Under the pieces are notes generated by a model. The model ran no database searches. It saw only the letters and a list, made by a program, of their open reading frames with translations, and was not told the origin of the DNA. A stretch of 64,000 bases of DNA from Bacteroidales bacterium. GTDB taxonomy: Bacteria > Bacteroidota > Bacteroidia > Bacteroidales > UBA1715. Each line of letters begins with the position of its first letter. Positions within the stretch are counted from its first letter, which is position 1. Both the position numbers and the translations under genes were made by a program. Positions 8,880-15,907 of the stretch are shown in pieces. Location of the stretch: contig JAGCOW010000007.1 of assembly GCA_017642535.1 (NCBI GenBank), positions 1 through 64,000 of the forward strand, given 5' to 3'.

Positions 8880-8922
8880 TTGCTGTAATTTATTGTAAGA
8901 TAGTTTCTTACAAGGTGTAAGA
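8880..8922. repeat. Degenerate copy of the CTTACAAGGTGTAAG repeat
   Basis: It shares TTGCTGTAA and TTTCTTACAAGGTGTAAGA with the copies at 9717 and 14214, with an insertion between. The core CTTACA-AGG-TGTAAG is itself a small inverted repeat. Confidence 0.6.
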
Positions 8923-9080
8923 TTATTTCTTACAAGTTCTATTGTTCCATTTCTTTTGGTGGCAAAAGAATTTTGCGAATAAGTGAGAGCAAAGGAAATG
9001 TATTTTCTTTGCCGAACGTGAGCAAAATGCCAAAAGGAAACGGAACCCAAAGAAAAGCCACCGACGGACCCGCTCGGCTA

Positions 9081-9438: not shown

Positions 9439-9494
9439 AAACCTTAATAGACATTCGGCGAATGAATCTCGCCGACGCTGCCTATCAAGGATTT
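9439..9494. repeat. Hairpin repeat, copy 1
   Basis: It contains AATAGACATT, the hairpin CGGCGA-7 nt-TCGCCG, and ACGCTGCCTATCAA then GATTT. It matches copy 2 at 9570 closely; the differences are concentrated in the hairpin loop. Confidence 0.7.
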
Positions 9495-9569
9495 AAAGTT
9501 GCTTTCTAAACCCCAGAACAATTCCGAGACGTTAGAAAACAACTCTTTGTTTTGTAAAAATTTTCATTC

Positions 9570-9625
9570 AAACCCCAATAGACATTCGGCGAACCAATTT
9601 CGCCGACGCTGCCTATCAAAGATTT
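9570..9625. repeat. Hairpin repeat, copy 2
   Basis: Same element as 9439-9494 in direct orientation, 131 bases further on. The loop reads ACCAATT instead of ATGAATC, while both 6-bp stem arms are kept. Confidence 0.7.
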
Positions 9626-9644
9626 GAACGTTTGGTCGCCAGTG

Positions 9645-9716: not shown

Positions 9717-9767
9717 CTTTGCAATAGTTTGCTGTAAGTTTGTTTCTTACAAGGTGTAAGAAAATTT
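9717..9767. repeat. 51-bp direct repeat, left copy
   Basis: It matches 14214-14264 in the same orientation with three differences in 51 bases. It contains GTAAG/CTTAC and CTTACA/TGTAAG inverted motifs. The two copies bracket the Bro-N and MmeI-like genes. Confidence 0.8.
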
Positions 9768-10823: not shown

Positions 10824-13739
10824 TTACTTCCGAGATTTCTTTGTTTTTGAAATCTTCTTATCCTTGCTTTTGGAGGTGGTTTTTGTTTTTGATTGTTTTG
10901 TAGTCATTTTTTCATATAACTTGAATAATTCACCAACAATTGCCTCGTCACTCATACCTTCGGCAAAACCATAAGCTTCCATTACAGCATGATCGTTGGC
11001 AGCATGTGCCTTACGCAATTCAGAGGGCATAGTATTTACATCGTTTAAAACAGATAATGGGCAATCGGGATATTTTGACCGAGCGTCTAAAATTAATTGT
11101 GCTGTTTTTTCAATTTTTGCTTTTTGTTCATTAGTTGGTTCGCACCATGGAAACGTGTTGTACACAAGTTCTTTTGAGTAACGGTAATCGCTTTTTAGTC
11201 GTCCTGCCACAACACGCATCCACGCCATATGTACTGATGATGTAAGCACACCGAAATGATAGATTGTCGCATGGGGAATAATTTGAACAGCATTGGATGA
11301 AATTACATTAGCCGTTGCAAACCCTATAGGTACGTATCGTCTTCGTTCGGAAGAAACTGATGGGACTATAATATAATCCACATTTTCAGGTTGGGTTATT
11401 TGAGCGAACAGATTCGGCACTTTTGCGTAACCATTTGTGGTTTTTGCTTTAGATGCAATACGAAACTCACGAACAGCACTCACACGTTCATACAAAATCT
11501 TGCTGTTCTTTATTTCCAATGGGCTTGCATTTTTCAACCACAAACAAAAACGTTCTTTGCCTTTTATAAATTCGTCAGCACCAATGTATGGTCTTATAAA
11601 TTTTTCTATAGACGGCTCCTTTTTCAACAAATCATTTTTCTCTTCTTCTGAAAGAACAAAATAGCCACCATCGCGTGGCTGATTGCCAAAATTCATTTTC
11701 GGGACATCACAAATTGGTTCTTTTTCTGCCTCTACAAAAACACTCTGTCCTTCAATCAAATACGGACTAATGTTTGATACCTTTTTTACGATGCCATCGG
11801 ACATAAAAAGCATTTTTTCTTTTCTATCATAATTAGCAAAGCCAACTATTACACAATGAACTGCTGCTTGATTTGTACTTTCGCTTTGCCATTTAAATGT
11901 TTGATAAGCAATATTGATTTTTGCTCCAAAATCGTTAAGAAGCACATTCCATAAAATCGGTACTTGCGCCCCTTGGCAAATGGAATTGGTTGAAACAAAA
12001 GCGACCTCAGTATTTGCACCTTTAATAAAATCAGCAGCCTTACGATACCAACCGCACACATAGTCTAAATCTTGGACATCTTTAATATTCCCAAAGAGTT
12101 GCTGAATCTCCTGTTTCTGTTCACTACCTTGTTCCATCATTCGCGCCCCTATAAACGGCGGATTTCCCATAATATAGTCGTATGTATGTTTTTTACCGTC
12201 GGTTTCGGTGGTGAATCCACTGAAAAGTCCCTCGTTGGGAATGTTATTTTTGTCAATTGGTTTGAGTGTTCGCCAATCCATACGGAGCGCGTTTCCTTCC
12301 ACAATATTTGCTTGGTTTTTAAGTGGCAAGAAATCAAGGTTTTGACTGACAATCGCCTCAGTTTCCGCCATCATTTGGCTTTCGGCAATCCAAAGTGCGG
12401 TTTTGGCAACCGTAACGGCAAAATCGTTTATCTCAATGCCATAAAATTGGTTGATATTCACTTGTATGAGATTGTCTAACCCTAAATTTTTCCAACCTTT
12501 ATTCAAAATAGACAGAACCTTGTTTTCAAGCCGTCGTAACGAAATGTATGTTTCTGTAAGAAAGTTACCCGAACCACAGGCAGGGTCAAGAAATGTGAGA
12601 TTGCCTAATTTTTCTTGAAATTTAACAAGATTTCCAGACTTTTGTTTAACCGTTGATTTTTCACAAATTGACTCAAATTCCGATTCCAAGTCGTTCAAAA
12701 ACAAAGGGTCTATTACTTTGTGTATATTGGCTATGCTTGTATAATGCATTCCGCCTTTTCTTCGTGTTTCGGGATTAAGCGTGCTTTCAAAAACAGCACC
12801 GAAAATCGTTGGTGAAATCTCGCTCCAATTGAATGGCGCACATTCATTTACAATTACATCAACAATGTTCTGGGTGAAATTTGGGATTTCAATATTCTCG
12901 TCGCGAAAAAGACCTCCATTCACATACGGGAACGGGGTTAGTGTTGTGTCGTATTTGTCGCGGTCTTGAATTTTCGTATCCAAAGCCCTGAAAAGATCTA
13001 TTATACCTTTTCGTACACTTTGCAGATTGAAGGACTTTATGTAATCCTCAAAACTTGTTCTCTGTTCAAACAGTCCTGCATCTTCGGCGTAAAGACAAAA
13101 AACTATTCTTACACAAAGGATATTGAGCGAGCGAAAACTTTTTTCATCAGGATTTTTGTATTCAGGCAAAATAGCATCATAAAGTTTTCCAACAAGTTTC
13201 CCCGCCTTTACAGAAAGTTCTTCTTCTCGATGAATATTTTCATTTTTATTATCAACAATAAACTGCAATCGATAAAAATCTTGAACAAAGTCTTTCAAAA
13301 AAATTTGTTCAGGTTTATCCTGTGGCTTTTCTAAATCATAGACCAAAAATTCCGCAAAGTTGCATACGATAATCCATCGAGGTTTTTCGCTTGCTTTCAT
13401 TTCTCCCACATAACGTTTGGCTTGTTCGAATGGAGTGAGAACTGTCCCATCACTTTGTTCATATGCTTTGTGAAGGTCAATTTTCAGCCCTTTTTGTTCA
13501 ATAAGAACTTTTGTTGATGAAATATATGCGTCAATAAATGAAGTGTGAGATAGCTTTACCCTTTTTTCAAATTCTATATACGAAGCACCGTCGGCAATGC
13601 CTAATACATTTTGCAACAACTGAATCCAAAAACGTTGAGTTTCCTGTTTTTCATCGCCACGGCCAGCCCATTCTTCTGCAAATTCCTTTGCTGCTTTCTT
13701 TTTTTCTGTAATTATCATAATGATTGATAGGTTGTGCAT
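10824..13739 (-). CDS. MmeI-like type IIL restriction-modification enzyme
   Basis: The product is a single chain of 971 residues combining cleavage, methylation and recognition. The N-terminal nuclease domain has a PD-(D/E)xK pattern: Asp 70 in SFIDAY and Glu 81-x-Lys 83 in IEQKG. A helical spacer follows, with the gamma-class methyltransferase motifs DPACGSGNF (385-393) and NPPF (526-529), then a target-recognition domain and a C-terminal domain with a lysine/serine tail. In this family one strand of the site is N6-adenine methylated and cutting is about 20 bases away. The start is ATG 13739 or ATG 13718. It is bracketed by 51-bp repeats and lies next to a Bro-N gene, which suggests transfer. 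Confidence 0.88.
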   Translation of the reverse strand: MHNLSIIMIITEKKKAAKEFAEEWAGRGDEKQETQRFWIQLLQNVLGIADGASYIEFEKRVKLSHTSFIDAYISSTKVLIEQKGLKIDLHKAYEQSDGTVLTPFEQAKRYVGEMKASEKPRWIIVCNFAEFLVYDLEKPQDKPEQIFLKDFVQDFYRLQFIVDNKNENIHREEELSVKAGKLVGKLYDAILPEYKNPDEKSFRSLNILCVRIVFCLYAEDAGLFEQRTSFEDYIKSFNLQSVRKGIIDLFRALDTKIQDRDKYDTTLTPFPYVNGGLFRDENIEIPNFTQNIVDVIVNECAPFNWSEISPTIFGAVFESTLNPETRRKGGMHYTSIANIHKVIDPLFLNDLESEFESICEKSTVKQKSGNLVKFQEKLGNLTFLDPACGSGNFLTETYISLRRLENKVLSILNKGWKNLGLDNLIQVNINQFYGIEINDFAVTVAKTALWIAESQMMAETEAIVSQNLDFLPLKNQANIVEGNALRMDWRTLKPIDKNNIPNEGLFSGFTTETDGKKHTYDYIMGNPPFIGARMMEQGSEQKQEIQQLFGNIKDVQDLDYVCGWYRKAADFIKGANTEVAFVSTNSICQGAQVPILWNVLLNDFGAKINIAYQTFKWQSESTNQAAVHCVIVGFANYDRKEKMLFMSDGIVKKVSNISPYLIEGQSVFVEAEKEPICDVPKMNFGNQPRDGGYFVLSEEEKNDLLKKEPSIEKFIRPYIGADEFIKGKERFCLWLKNASPLEIKNSKILYERVSAVREFRIASKAKTTNGYAKVPNLFAQITQPENVDYIIVPSVSSERRRYVPIGFATANVISSNAVQIIPHATIYHFGVLTSSVHMAWMRVVAGRLKSDYRYSKELVYNTFPWCEPTNEQKAKIEKTAQLILDARSKYPDCPLSVLNDVNTMPSELRKAHAANDHAVMEAYGFAEGMSDEAIVGELFKLYEKMTTKQSKTKTTSKSKDKKISKTKKSRK

Positions 13740-13773
13740 TTACTATCAATCACTATAATCGGATAACAAAAAA

Positions 13774-13960
13774 GGTGCAAGCTTTTCTTTCTTATCCACG
13801 AGGAGCCTGCAAGAACCACGTTCAAATCCAAGATTAGCTTACACCTGATAGGTGCAAGCATCAACAACCATGGATTTGAACGAGAAACATTCTTCTCGTG
13901 GATTAACTTTATACGATAACTCTAAATCATCAGTTTGCAGGCTTTTGATTTGGATAAGAA
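13774..13960. repeat. Nested and competing inverted repeats upstream of the MmeI-like gene
   Basis: Four nested pairs are seen: 13789-13798 with 13951-13960 (10 bp, perfect), 13804-13812 with 13935-13943 (9 bp, perfect), 13819-13830 with 13871-13882 (12 bp, perfect), and 13837-13845 with 13851-13859 (one mismatch). A further pair, 13795-13805 with 13892-13902 (one mismatch in 11), uses the same left arm as the first two and so excludes them. GGTGCAAGC also recurs directly at 13774. The block lies 35-220 bases before the MmeI-like start. Confidence 0.8.
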
Positions 13961-14213
13961 TAATAGTTAATGCTATGATTAATACTATGTTATAAATTTT
14001 CTATTTCTACATTATTACTTTATTTTGATTTACAATTTCCTTTGCCACCACACAAAAACGAGTAGCGTAGGATTTTGCGAAAATAGAAATAAAATTCGGA
14101 ATTATCTACTTTGGTGTTGTAAAAAATATCCGTAATCTTTTTTATTGGAAATGAAACGCTATCGGGGGAGATTCCTTGCCTCGCATTGCTCGGCTGCGGA
14201 ATCTGTTTCCCCT
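13961..14213. other. Intergenic stretch with a stem-loop, no gene seen
   Basis: AT-rich DNA without a credible reading frame or a TAnnTTTG box on the minus strand. At its right end, 14164-14212, GGGG and AGATTCC pair with GGAATCT and CCCC around a GC-rich loop (TTGCCTCGCATTGCTCGGCTG region), resembling dispersed Bacteroidetes stem-loops. Confidence 0.5.
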
Positions 14214-14264
14214 CTTTGCAATAGTTTGATGTAAGTTTTTGTCTTACAAGGTGTAAGAAAATTT
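14214..14264. repeat. 51-bp direct repeat, right copy
   Basis: Partner of 9717-9767. Its last base overlaps the stop codon of the HTH gene, so the element sits immediately downstream of that gene. Confidence 0.8.
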
Positions 14265-14899: not shown

Positions 14900-15550
14900 T
14901 TATTCTTCGTCAATCTCAACTCTTTCAATGTAATACTCCATTGTGGAAAGTTTCTCTTCCGTCGAAAGCATACTTTTTATGAGCCGCATTGCGTGCCGTT
15001 CCTCAAAGTTAAGGTAATTCAAAAATTCAGGTTGGTTTTTGTGGATGTCCAACACTTTTAAAAATACCAGGTCCTTGTCTTTCAGAATCTCCTGTTGCTT
15101 GAATTCGTGGAGTTTATTAACGAATTTTCGTCGCGAAATCGGAAGTTTTTTCCTCTCCTCAAAGTAGAGTTGATAGGCCTCGTCGCTTATAAAAGCGGTT
15201 CGTTCCAAGCCAATTAAATGACGGATTATCTTCAATTCCGCTTCAATCATTTCCAACGGCTCGTTGATGTATTCGCTAAATGCCTGAAAGTCTATTACTT
15301 GTCCAGAACGAATCAGTTTCATGGTTTCGCCAAATGGAGCAACCATTTCTGCTAATTTGGGATAGGCAAACGTCCGTTCCTGCAATCGTTTCACGGGAAC
15401 GAGGAGTTTGTCGTCCATGTGGTTTATGTGATCAAGATAAGAGAGCCGTCGTATTTTCACATATTTTTCAGCCGCCTCTATTGCTTTTCGAAACGAAGGA
15501 TAGATAATTTCAAATCCGTCGCGGTTGGTGATTTTTGCCCCGTTTGCCAA
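14900..15550 (-). CDS. Unrecognised protein, TTG start
   Basis: The product has 216 residues if read from TTG 15550, the only early start: a TGA stop lies just upstream, and the next ATG is at residue 46. The protein looks soluble, charged and mainly helical, with no signal peptide and no motif I recognise (segments EAAEKYVKIRRLSYLDHINH and EELTAFISDEAYQLYF-like helices). A -7-like TATGTTTG at 15558-15565 would give a nearly leaderless message from the TTG. A 5'-truncated remnant is the alternative. It is flanked by structured intergenic DNA and a second unknown gene. Confidence 0.55.
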   Translation of the reverse strand: MANGAKITNRDGFEIIYPSFRKAIEAAEKYVKIRRLSYLDHINHMDDKLLVPVKRLQERTFAYPKLAEMVAPFGETMKLIRSGQVIDFQAFSEYINEPLEMIEAELKIIRHLIGLERTAFISDEAYQLYFEERKKLPISRRKFVNKLHEFKQQEILKDKDLVFLKVLDIHKNQPEFLNYLNFEERHAMRLIKSMLSTEEKLSTMEYYIERVEIDEE

Positions 15551-15557
15551 ATCTACT

Positions 15558-15565
15558 CAAACATA
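15558..15565 (-). promoter_or_regulatory. Possible -7 box before the TTG-start gene
   Basis: The minus strand reads TATGTTTG, 8 bases before TTG 15550. No -33 TTTG at the right distance was found, so this is weak. Confidence 0.35.
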
Positions 15566-15611
15566 CGCAATACAATTTTTCTGCGTTATGCCACCTTTCG
15601 TATTCAACACA

Positions 15612-15659
15612 TACGACCAACAAAAAACTGCGGGCAAACTTGCTCGCAGTGTGGTCGTA
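15612..15659. repeat. 48-base two-part hairpin
   Basis: The outer stem TACGACCA / TGGTCGTA is perfect. The inner stem CTGCGGGCAA / TTGCTCGCAG has one G-T type mismatch and a 2-base loop. The rest of the gap 15566-15907 holds no supported gene; a plus-strand frame of about 60 codons from ATG 15588 passes through the hairpin and is not convincing. Confidence 0.65.
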
Positions 15660-15907
15660 GGAATTGCACCATTAGAAAGGCAAGTCGCCCGCAAAGCAGG
15701 GCATCGCACTTGTATCTTTCTTTATTTGCATATTCCTGAAATTTCCTACGTTTCACTGCGAATAGACAAATAGCAAACGCTATGGTATTATGTTATTATT
15801 TCCTTTTCTCTACATATTTATTGTGTTTTGAATTATTTCCTCTAACCGCACAAAAAAGTATGGAATAGAGGTCGTAAAAATAGAAAAAAATGAAATAACT
15901 CGTTTTT

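Follow-up and report, generated by a model that had tools for sequence, protein, structure and literature searches.

The intergenic region in front of an MmeI-type restriction-modification (R-M) gene in the window, by which we mean the whole 64,000-nucleotide stretch of DNA analyzed, carries an element that we predict to be a structured RNA encoded on the minus strand, as is the gene itself. As judged from its homologues, the element combines a conserved minus-strand structure, mutually exclusive helices that are under selection and a fixed site before R-M genes. It is probably the 5' leader of the MmeI-gene transcript, acting in cis as a multistate RNA switch or attenuator. That a switch might set the expression of the restriction gene had been proposed in the original prediction, and this idea is now strongly supported by compensatory changes in both of its competing pairings and by the conservation of the leader before R-M genes.

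The gene itself (10824 to 13739, minus strand) is, by its domain content, a type IIG MmeI-like enzyme (Pfam MmeI_Mtase, 1.4e-87; MmeI_TRD, 1.5e-78; MmeI_N, 3.4e-35), and comparison with homologues indicates that it probably starts at the ATG at 13718 to 13716 and not at the longest-ORF start at 13739. Upstream of it, all four inverted pairs that had been predicted were present in the sequence, namely, 13789-13798/13951-13960 (10 bp), about 13804-13812/13934-13942 (9 bp), 13819-13830/13871-13882 (12 bp), and 13837-13845/13851-13859 (9 bp), as was the competing fifth pair, 13794-13805/13892-13903 (12 nt, 92%). Folding a 226-nt segment on both strands, as had been suggested, gave z-scores of -7.3 for the minus strand and -6.1 for the plus strand relative to 200 dinucleotide shuffles, none of which (0/200) folded equally well on either strand. 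These z-scores, together with the paired-column counts in relatives, ruled out a chance palindrome. Over the helices, read on the gene strand, G-U wobble pairs outnumbered A-C mismatches 333 to 32, indicating that the minus strand is the folding strand. The functional unit exceeds the segment originally described, running on the minus strand from about 13974 down to the start codon at about 13716, and the aligned ends of blastn homologues delimit a unit of about 250 nt. The leader contains no ORF, and no tRNA or tmRNA remnant was detected in the element. A hammerhead-like CUGAUGA motif seen in the window was not kept in relatives (alignments A2 and A8).

The nested pairs had been thought to form one long stem-loop; instead, the helices, all on the minus strand, make up several alternative, partly crossing folds, and the initial set of pairs was incomplete, since the tail, the 5' end, and a palindrome at the start codon are further partners. 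Three sets of helices could be distinguished: a resting set (P1, P2, P4, P5, and L:R), a transient set (PKb, P4, P5, and a 5' hairpin), and an alternative set (P8 and B:A', with P7 possible). In the resting set, P1 joins UUCUUAUCCA (13951 to 13960) to UGGAUAAGAA (13789 to 13798), P2 joins GCCUGCAA (13934 to 13943) to UUGCAGGCU (13803 to 13812), and P4, a sequence-variable helix, joins CGUUCAAAUCC (13871 to 13882) to GGAUUUGAACG (13819 to 13830). P5 is a hairpin whose 5' arm, A, is GCUUGCACC (13851 to 13859) and whose 3' arm, B, is GGUGUAAGC (13837 to 13845). L:R pairs the left arm of the start-codon palindrome, GATTGATAGTAAATGC (13737 to 13752), with the right arm, CTATCAATC (13722 to 13730), which lies immediately 5' of the start codon.

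Covariation was assessed in an alignment (A8) of 66 nonredundant copies sharing less than 90% identity, by an unbiased G-test on columns with APC correction. P1, P2, P4, and the fifth pair ranked at the top. Among these 66 relatives, P1 was paired at 99.7%, with two-sided changes in 4 pairs, P2 at 99.8%, with two-sided changes in 6 of 8 pairs, and P5 at 98.0%, while P4, counted in the MAFFT alignment, was paired at 72 to 81% with two-sided changes in 9 of 10 pairs. Together, the four helices were 93.3% paired, compared to 82.2% after shuffling and 32 to 46% when the strands were slid against each other, with 24 two-sided pairs in total; the shuffle counts ignore kinship, whereas the slid controls retain it and fail.

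The fifth pair, PKb, joins AUCCACGAG (13892 to 13903) to CUCCUCGUGGAU (13794 to 13805); it competes with the inner part of the P1 3' strand for 13794 to 13798 and crosses P2. It was paired at 95.0% in the 66 relatives, compared to 29 to 54% for the slid controls. Columns 23 and 231 (P1) and columns 96 and 231 (fifth pair) were each 100% paired in the 66 homologues (U-A in 49, C-G in 17), and the three columns covaried as TTA in 49 and CCG in 17. The predicted mutual exclusion of the two folds thus proved true for the nucleotides that they share, and it is kept in all 66 homologues through the common column 231. A second exclusion involves B, which is also complementary to A', a second copy of A (GCUUGCACC) in the tail (13774 to 13782). 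B:A' was 99.8% paired in the 66 relatives, with two-sided changes in 6 of 9 pairs and slid controls at 25 to 65%; A' varies at most positions, yet its complementarity to B is retained. Mutually exclusive helices are therefore under selection at two places, P1/PKb via column 231 and P5/B:A' via B.

Three further pairings have weaker support than these main helices. P8 would pair the 5' core, AGCATTAACTATTATTC in the window (13958 to 13974) and AGCATTAGCTATTATTC in most relatives, with AGUUAAUGCU just before A; the start of A overlaps the P8 partner GUUGAUGCU. P8 was 94 to 100% paired at 7 of 10 columns, and in one copy (L103) the core and the partner have each lost one base. P7 would join a loop (13909 to 13919; UCGGAUAAAAG in relatives) to the tail (13755 to 13768; GUUAUCCGAUU in the window), with an energy of -9.4 kcal/mol for a copy's own loop and tail, compared to -7.8 kcal/mol (standard deviation, 0.26) for permuted combinations; it is weak in the window copy, at -4.4 kcal/mol. 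The 5' core, most positions of which are more than 95% invariant in 103 copies, is also complementary to the L arm (mean of -11.7 kcal/mol, compared to -4.5 kcal/mol after shuffling), but since core and L are nearly invariant, this is complementarity and not covariation.

We then considered how these helices would succeed one another. By minimum free energy, the first 180 nt of the window leader fold into the transient set, while 201 nt fold into the resting set, and in an in silico growing transcript PKb formed first and then flipped to the P1/P2 fold. The full window leader folded with a 17-bp hairpin over the start codon. The motif of the start-codon palindrome was found in 85 of 103 copies, L:R having a mean energy of -12.8 kcal/mol. 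A' is followed by a U-rich run (CUUUUUUG in the window, 13765 to 13773): the 12 nt after A' contain 8 U on average and at least 6, compared to 27% U across the element. The terminator-like hairpins of this family (family A) are moderate, with a median of -8.2 kcal/mol, and that of the window copy is weak, at -2.9 kcal/mol; a terminator prediction tool found none at the window leader. Neither did a promoter scan recognize a promoter there, a scan that leaves out the Bacteroidetes promoter type. In a pseudoknot-free model of the window leader, the resting fold was favored over the forced B:A' fold by about 23 kcal/mol, suggesting that the alternative state would need help from a ligand, a protein, or kinetics.

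On the basis of these helix sets, the nascent RNA would first adopt the transient fold, with PKb, P4, and P5, and P1 and P2 would displace the PKb fold once the last strand emerges. In the resulting resting fold, P5 would hold A on B, leaving the tail free for the weak terminator-like hairpin and for the L:R hairpin burying the start codon. The alternative fold would pair the 5' core with the strand before A (P8), with L, or with both, thereby freeing B for A' and exposing the start codon. The balance between the folds would then set the amount of R-M protein, through transcription attenuation, start-codon masking, or both, and the signal could be a metabolite, a protein, an RNA, or folding kinetics alone. 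The element would thus work like a riboswitch or attenuator, ligand binding being hypothetical. With respect to action at the RNA level, for which the original prediction had found no direct indication, the wobble asymmetry on the gene strand and the conserved tail and start-codon pairings argue in its favor, while the transcription of the leader, its ON state, and its signal are what we infer.

The genes behind the leader point in the same direction. About 80% encode R-M proteins, from unrelated families (EcoRI-type, MmeI, Tsp45I, N6_Mtase, Dcm, and D12). A single protein cluster of EcoRI-type methylases stands behind 62 of the 103 distinct copies, MmeI behind 5, and N6_Mtase/Eco57I types, with or without a specificity domain, behind 4; N6_N4 methylases, Dcm (2), D12, Tsp45I, and ResIII-HNH account for other R-M genes. 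We take a family of 813 amino acids with unknown domain content (3 copies and a fourth with an internal stop) to be a type IIG enzyme as well. The non-R-M genes encode sulfatase/phosphoethanolamine-transferase types (3), glycosyltransferase 2 proteins (3), small helix-turn-helix (HTH) proteins (4), one acyltransferase, and one GDSL esterase. The start codon usually lies 65 to 80 nt past the element, in the same direction in essentially all copies. The original prediction had made its reading depend on compensatory changes in relatives and on the presence of the region next to orthologous MmeI-like genes: compensatory changes were found in both competing pairings, and the leader is kept at MmeI-like genes (L039, L104, L152, and L194) and at many other R-M genes too. 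Where the same EcoRI-type methylase lacks the leader, the site holds instead either a divergent leader (L242, L249, L250, L259, and L261) or a small HTH ORF that is similar to controller proteins (L244 to L247 and L253), and from this exchange we infer that the leader is a regulator. At one locus (L092), the R-M gene behind the leader has an early in-frame stop and could be a pseudogene or a phase-off allele.

In a blastn search of 198 related genomes, full-length homologues were found in G162, G196, G030, G003 (two copies), and G053, directly preceding another MmeI gene, EcoRI-type methylases, or a Tsp45I restriction enzyme. A covariance model built from 8 copies matched 27 of 393 genomes of the order, with up to five copies per genome and three in the genome of the window, and about 103 distinct copies were collected. 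Among 395 genomes of the phylum, scanned with this model outside the order, only the window's own genome and one marginal partial match were recovered. When 84,980 species genomes were searched with a gene-blind DNA pattern covering the 25 nt at the 5' end, 115 stretches matched; the 80 matches listed came from Bacteroidales or similarly labeled metagenome-assembled genomes (one "uncultured bacterium"), mostly from ruminant and horse gut, and 79 of these 80 loci, once fetched, were matched by the covariance model. As far as searched, the predicted leader is thus restricted to Bacteroidales. No leader match was found in the viral contigs, plasmids, and phages searched, and an origin from any of these was therefore rejected. 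A repeat element or MITE was likewise rejected, since the element had one good blastn match in its own genome and the distant copies were other leaders preceding genes. One orphan copy (L150:4470) lies beside mfd, apparently without a gene of its own, and in G003 two near-identical methylase genes with different leaders are each cut off by a contig end (L042 and L043) after about 146 bp.

Several blastn matches that covered the 5' core alone led to a second family and to core-only sites. Family B, found in 10 of 295 genomes, has a related core, AGCGTTTGCTATT, and a different leader sequence with the same order of parts, and it precedes N6_Mtase and HSDR_N fusions and N6_N4 methylase, MmeI, MBOAT, and Acyl_transf_3 genes. 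The window harbors one such leader (15560 to 15781, minus strand) upstream of the ORF at 14900 to 15523, for which no Pfam or NCBIfam match was found. Its helices are P1, CGCAGTG/CACTGCG, and P2, CGTAGGAAAT/ATTCCTACG, and its terminator-like hairpin (ACTGCG..CGCAGT, then U) reaches -14.5 kcal/mol over a 45-nt stretch; several family B members have such hairpins of -12 to -20 kcal/mol, often stronger than those of family A. The P8 comparison in family B is biased, because its P8 partner was picked by best duplex. In addition, the 5' core without the leader directly precedes YhcG/DUF1016 nuclease genes and an MmeI gene (L043:6326, minus strand; L047:3482, plus strand; L017:1517, plus strand). 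Part of the conservation of the core may therefore reflect promoter function, as if the core also belonged to a promoter common to defense genes.

Other explanations were weighed against a cis-acting switch. The RNA could be a stand-alone noncoding RNA that ends at the U-run and acts in trans, as an RNA antitoxin or guide-like RNA comparable to AbiF or type III toxin-antitoxin RNAs, the R-M gene merely being next to it. The arrangement, a defense gene preceded by a compact conserved RNA that ends in a terminator-like tail, does recall AbiF (PMC12373285). However, the downstream proteins belong to more than 10 unrelated families, including glycosyltransferases and sulfatases, which makes a common protein partner unlikely, and conservation does not stop at the U-run but extends to P7 and to the start-codon palindrome, as fits a leader; we thus consider an RNA acting in trans unlikely. 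A type III toxin-antitoxin or AbiF RNA in the strict sense was rejected, since no single toxin family lies downstream and the element is a single unit and not a repeated motif. Processive antitermination, in which a put- or EAR-like element would act on RNA polymerase instead of attenuating, we judge quite improbable: the leader is common to R-M and surface-polysaccharide type genes and may control them in either direction, as such an element would allow, but the mutually exclusive helices and the start-codon palindrome point to local switching, the downstream genes frequently stand alone or in short operons, and the Rfam scans matched no known element of this type.

The two remaining explanations place the function in the DNA. 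A recombination or integration site had been suggested originally, and an integron attC-like or other tyrosine-recombinase site assembling gene cassettes would account for the inverted-complementary ends (core and L arm), the location directly before start codons, and the cassette-like variety of the downstream genes. Against this, none of 10 carrier genomes had a match to the integron integrase TIGR02249 above cutoff, tandem arrays of cassettes were not observed, the orientation to the gene is essentially uniform, and the interior shows sequence conservation as well as alternative helices. Moreover, the folding strand of an integron attC is the opposite of the coding strand, whereas here the two are the same, and a recombination site is consequently very doubtful. 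Phase variation is classic for R-M and surface genes, and since the ends of the element are imperfect inverted repeats, an invertible promoter or phase-variation switch would be conceivable, but essentially all of the about 100 copies share their orientation to the gene and a fixed spacing, so that this explanation is nearly refuted and barely tenable.

The cis-acting leader appears to be previously undescribed. None of the 4,227 Rfam families scored above its gathering threshold, a lenient scan of the element gave nothing relevant, and in the literature searched no R-M leader RNA of this kind was described. The main text of a survey of structured RNAs in the human microbiome mentions neither restriction nor methylases, although its supplements could hold an unnamed entry. 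Like riboswitches and leader attenuators such as the T-box and SAM riboswitches, the predicted leader is a long structured 5' element with mutually exclusive helices, a fixed place before the gene, and a putative terminator-like tail or masked start codon; unlike riboswitches, it precedes R-M and surface-modification genes and not metabolic ones, and it has no known ligand and no Rfam family. With the abiF RNA motif (RF03085), which is cotranscribed with the AbiF defense gene that it precedes (PMC12373285), it shares being a structured RNA with a terminator, a putative one in the leader, upstream of a defense gene, but in abiF a short repeated motif is bound by the cognate protein, while the leader is one large switch-like RNA before many unrelated proteins; RF03085 was in the scanned Rfam library and did not match the leader. 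Integron attC sites are likewise long imperfect palindromes whose ends are complementary and which lie directly before a gene, but the leader differs in its conserved interior and opposite folding strand and in having neither integrase nor arrays.

Regulation of R-M systems, as reviewed, involves controller proteins, self-repressing methylases, antisense RNA, and hairpins, and the word "riboswitch" is absent from both reviews (PMC3874152 and PMC12707154). In EcoRI and Eco29kI, reverse promoters inside the R gene give rise to antisense transcripts (PMC3874152 and PMC12707154), which would have in common with the leader that R-M expression is controlled at the RNA level, whereas the leader would be a folded sense-strand RNA. 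Small HTH ORFs resembling controller (C) proteins occupy the upstream slot of the same methylase family in other genomes and, although the leader is an RNA and not a protein, the two probably do the same timing job.

It has long been asked how a newly arrived or resident restriction system spares the cell that carries it and at what point it becomes active. A covarying switch RNA common to unrelated R-M families would be an answer unlike the known ones, and one common in gut Bacteroidales. The same leader before sulfatases, glycosyltransferases, and acyltransferases would tie restriction and surface change, two routes to phage resistance, to one RNA signal. We therefore put forward, as a tentative proposal that may well not hold in full, a defense-specific class of RNA switches, in which a modular leader swapped among unrelated R-M and envelope-modifying genes across Bacteroidales would sense one common signal (e.g., infection, DNA entry, or a metabolite) and control the timing of restriction at the RNA level, replacing controller proteins.

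The window contains other repeats outside the two leaders. The palindrome CTTACAAGGTGTAAG has three intergenic copies, at 8909 to 8924, 9742 to 9761, and 14243 to 14262, and a stretch of about 60 nt that includes ATAGACATTCGGCGAA...TCGCCGACGCTGCCTATCAA is repeated imperfectly and in direct orientation, at about 9440 to 9505 and 9569 to 9630.
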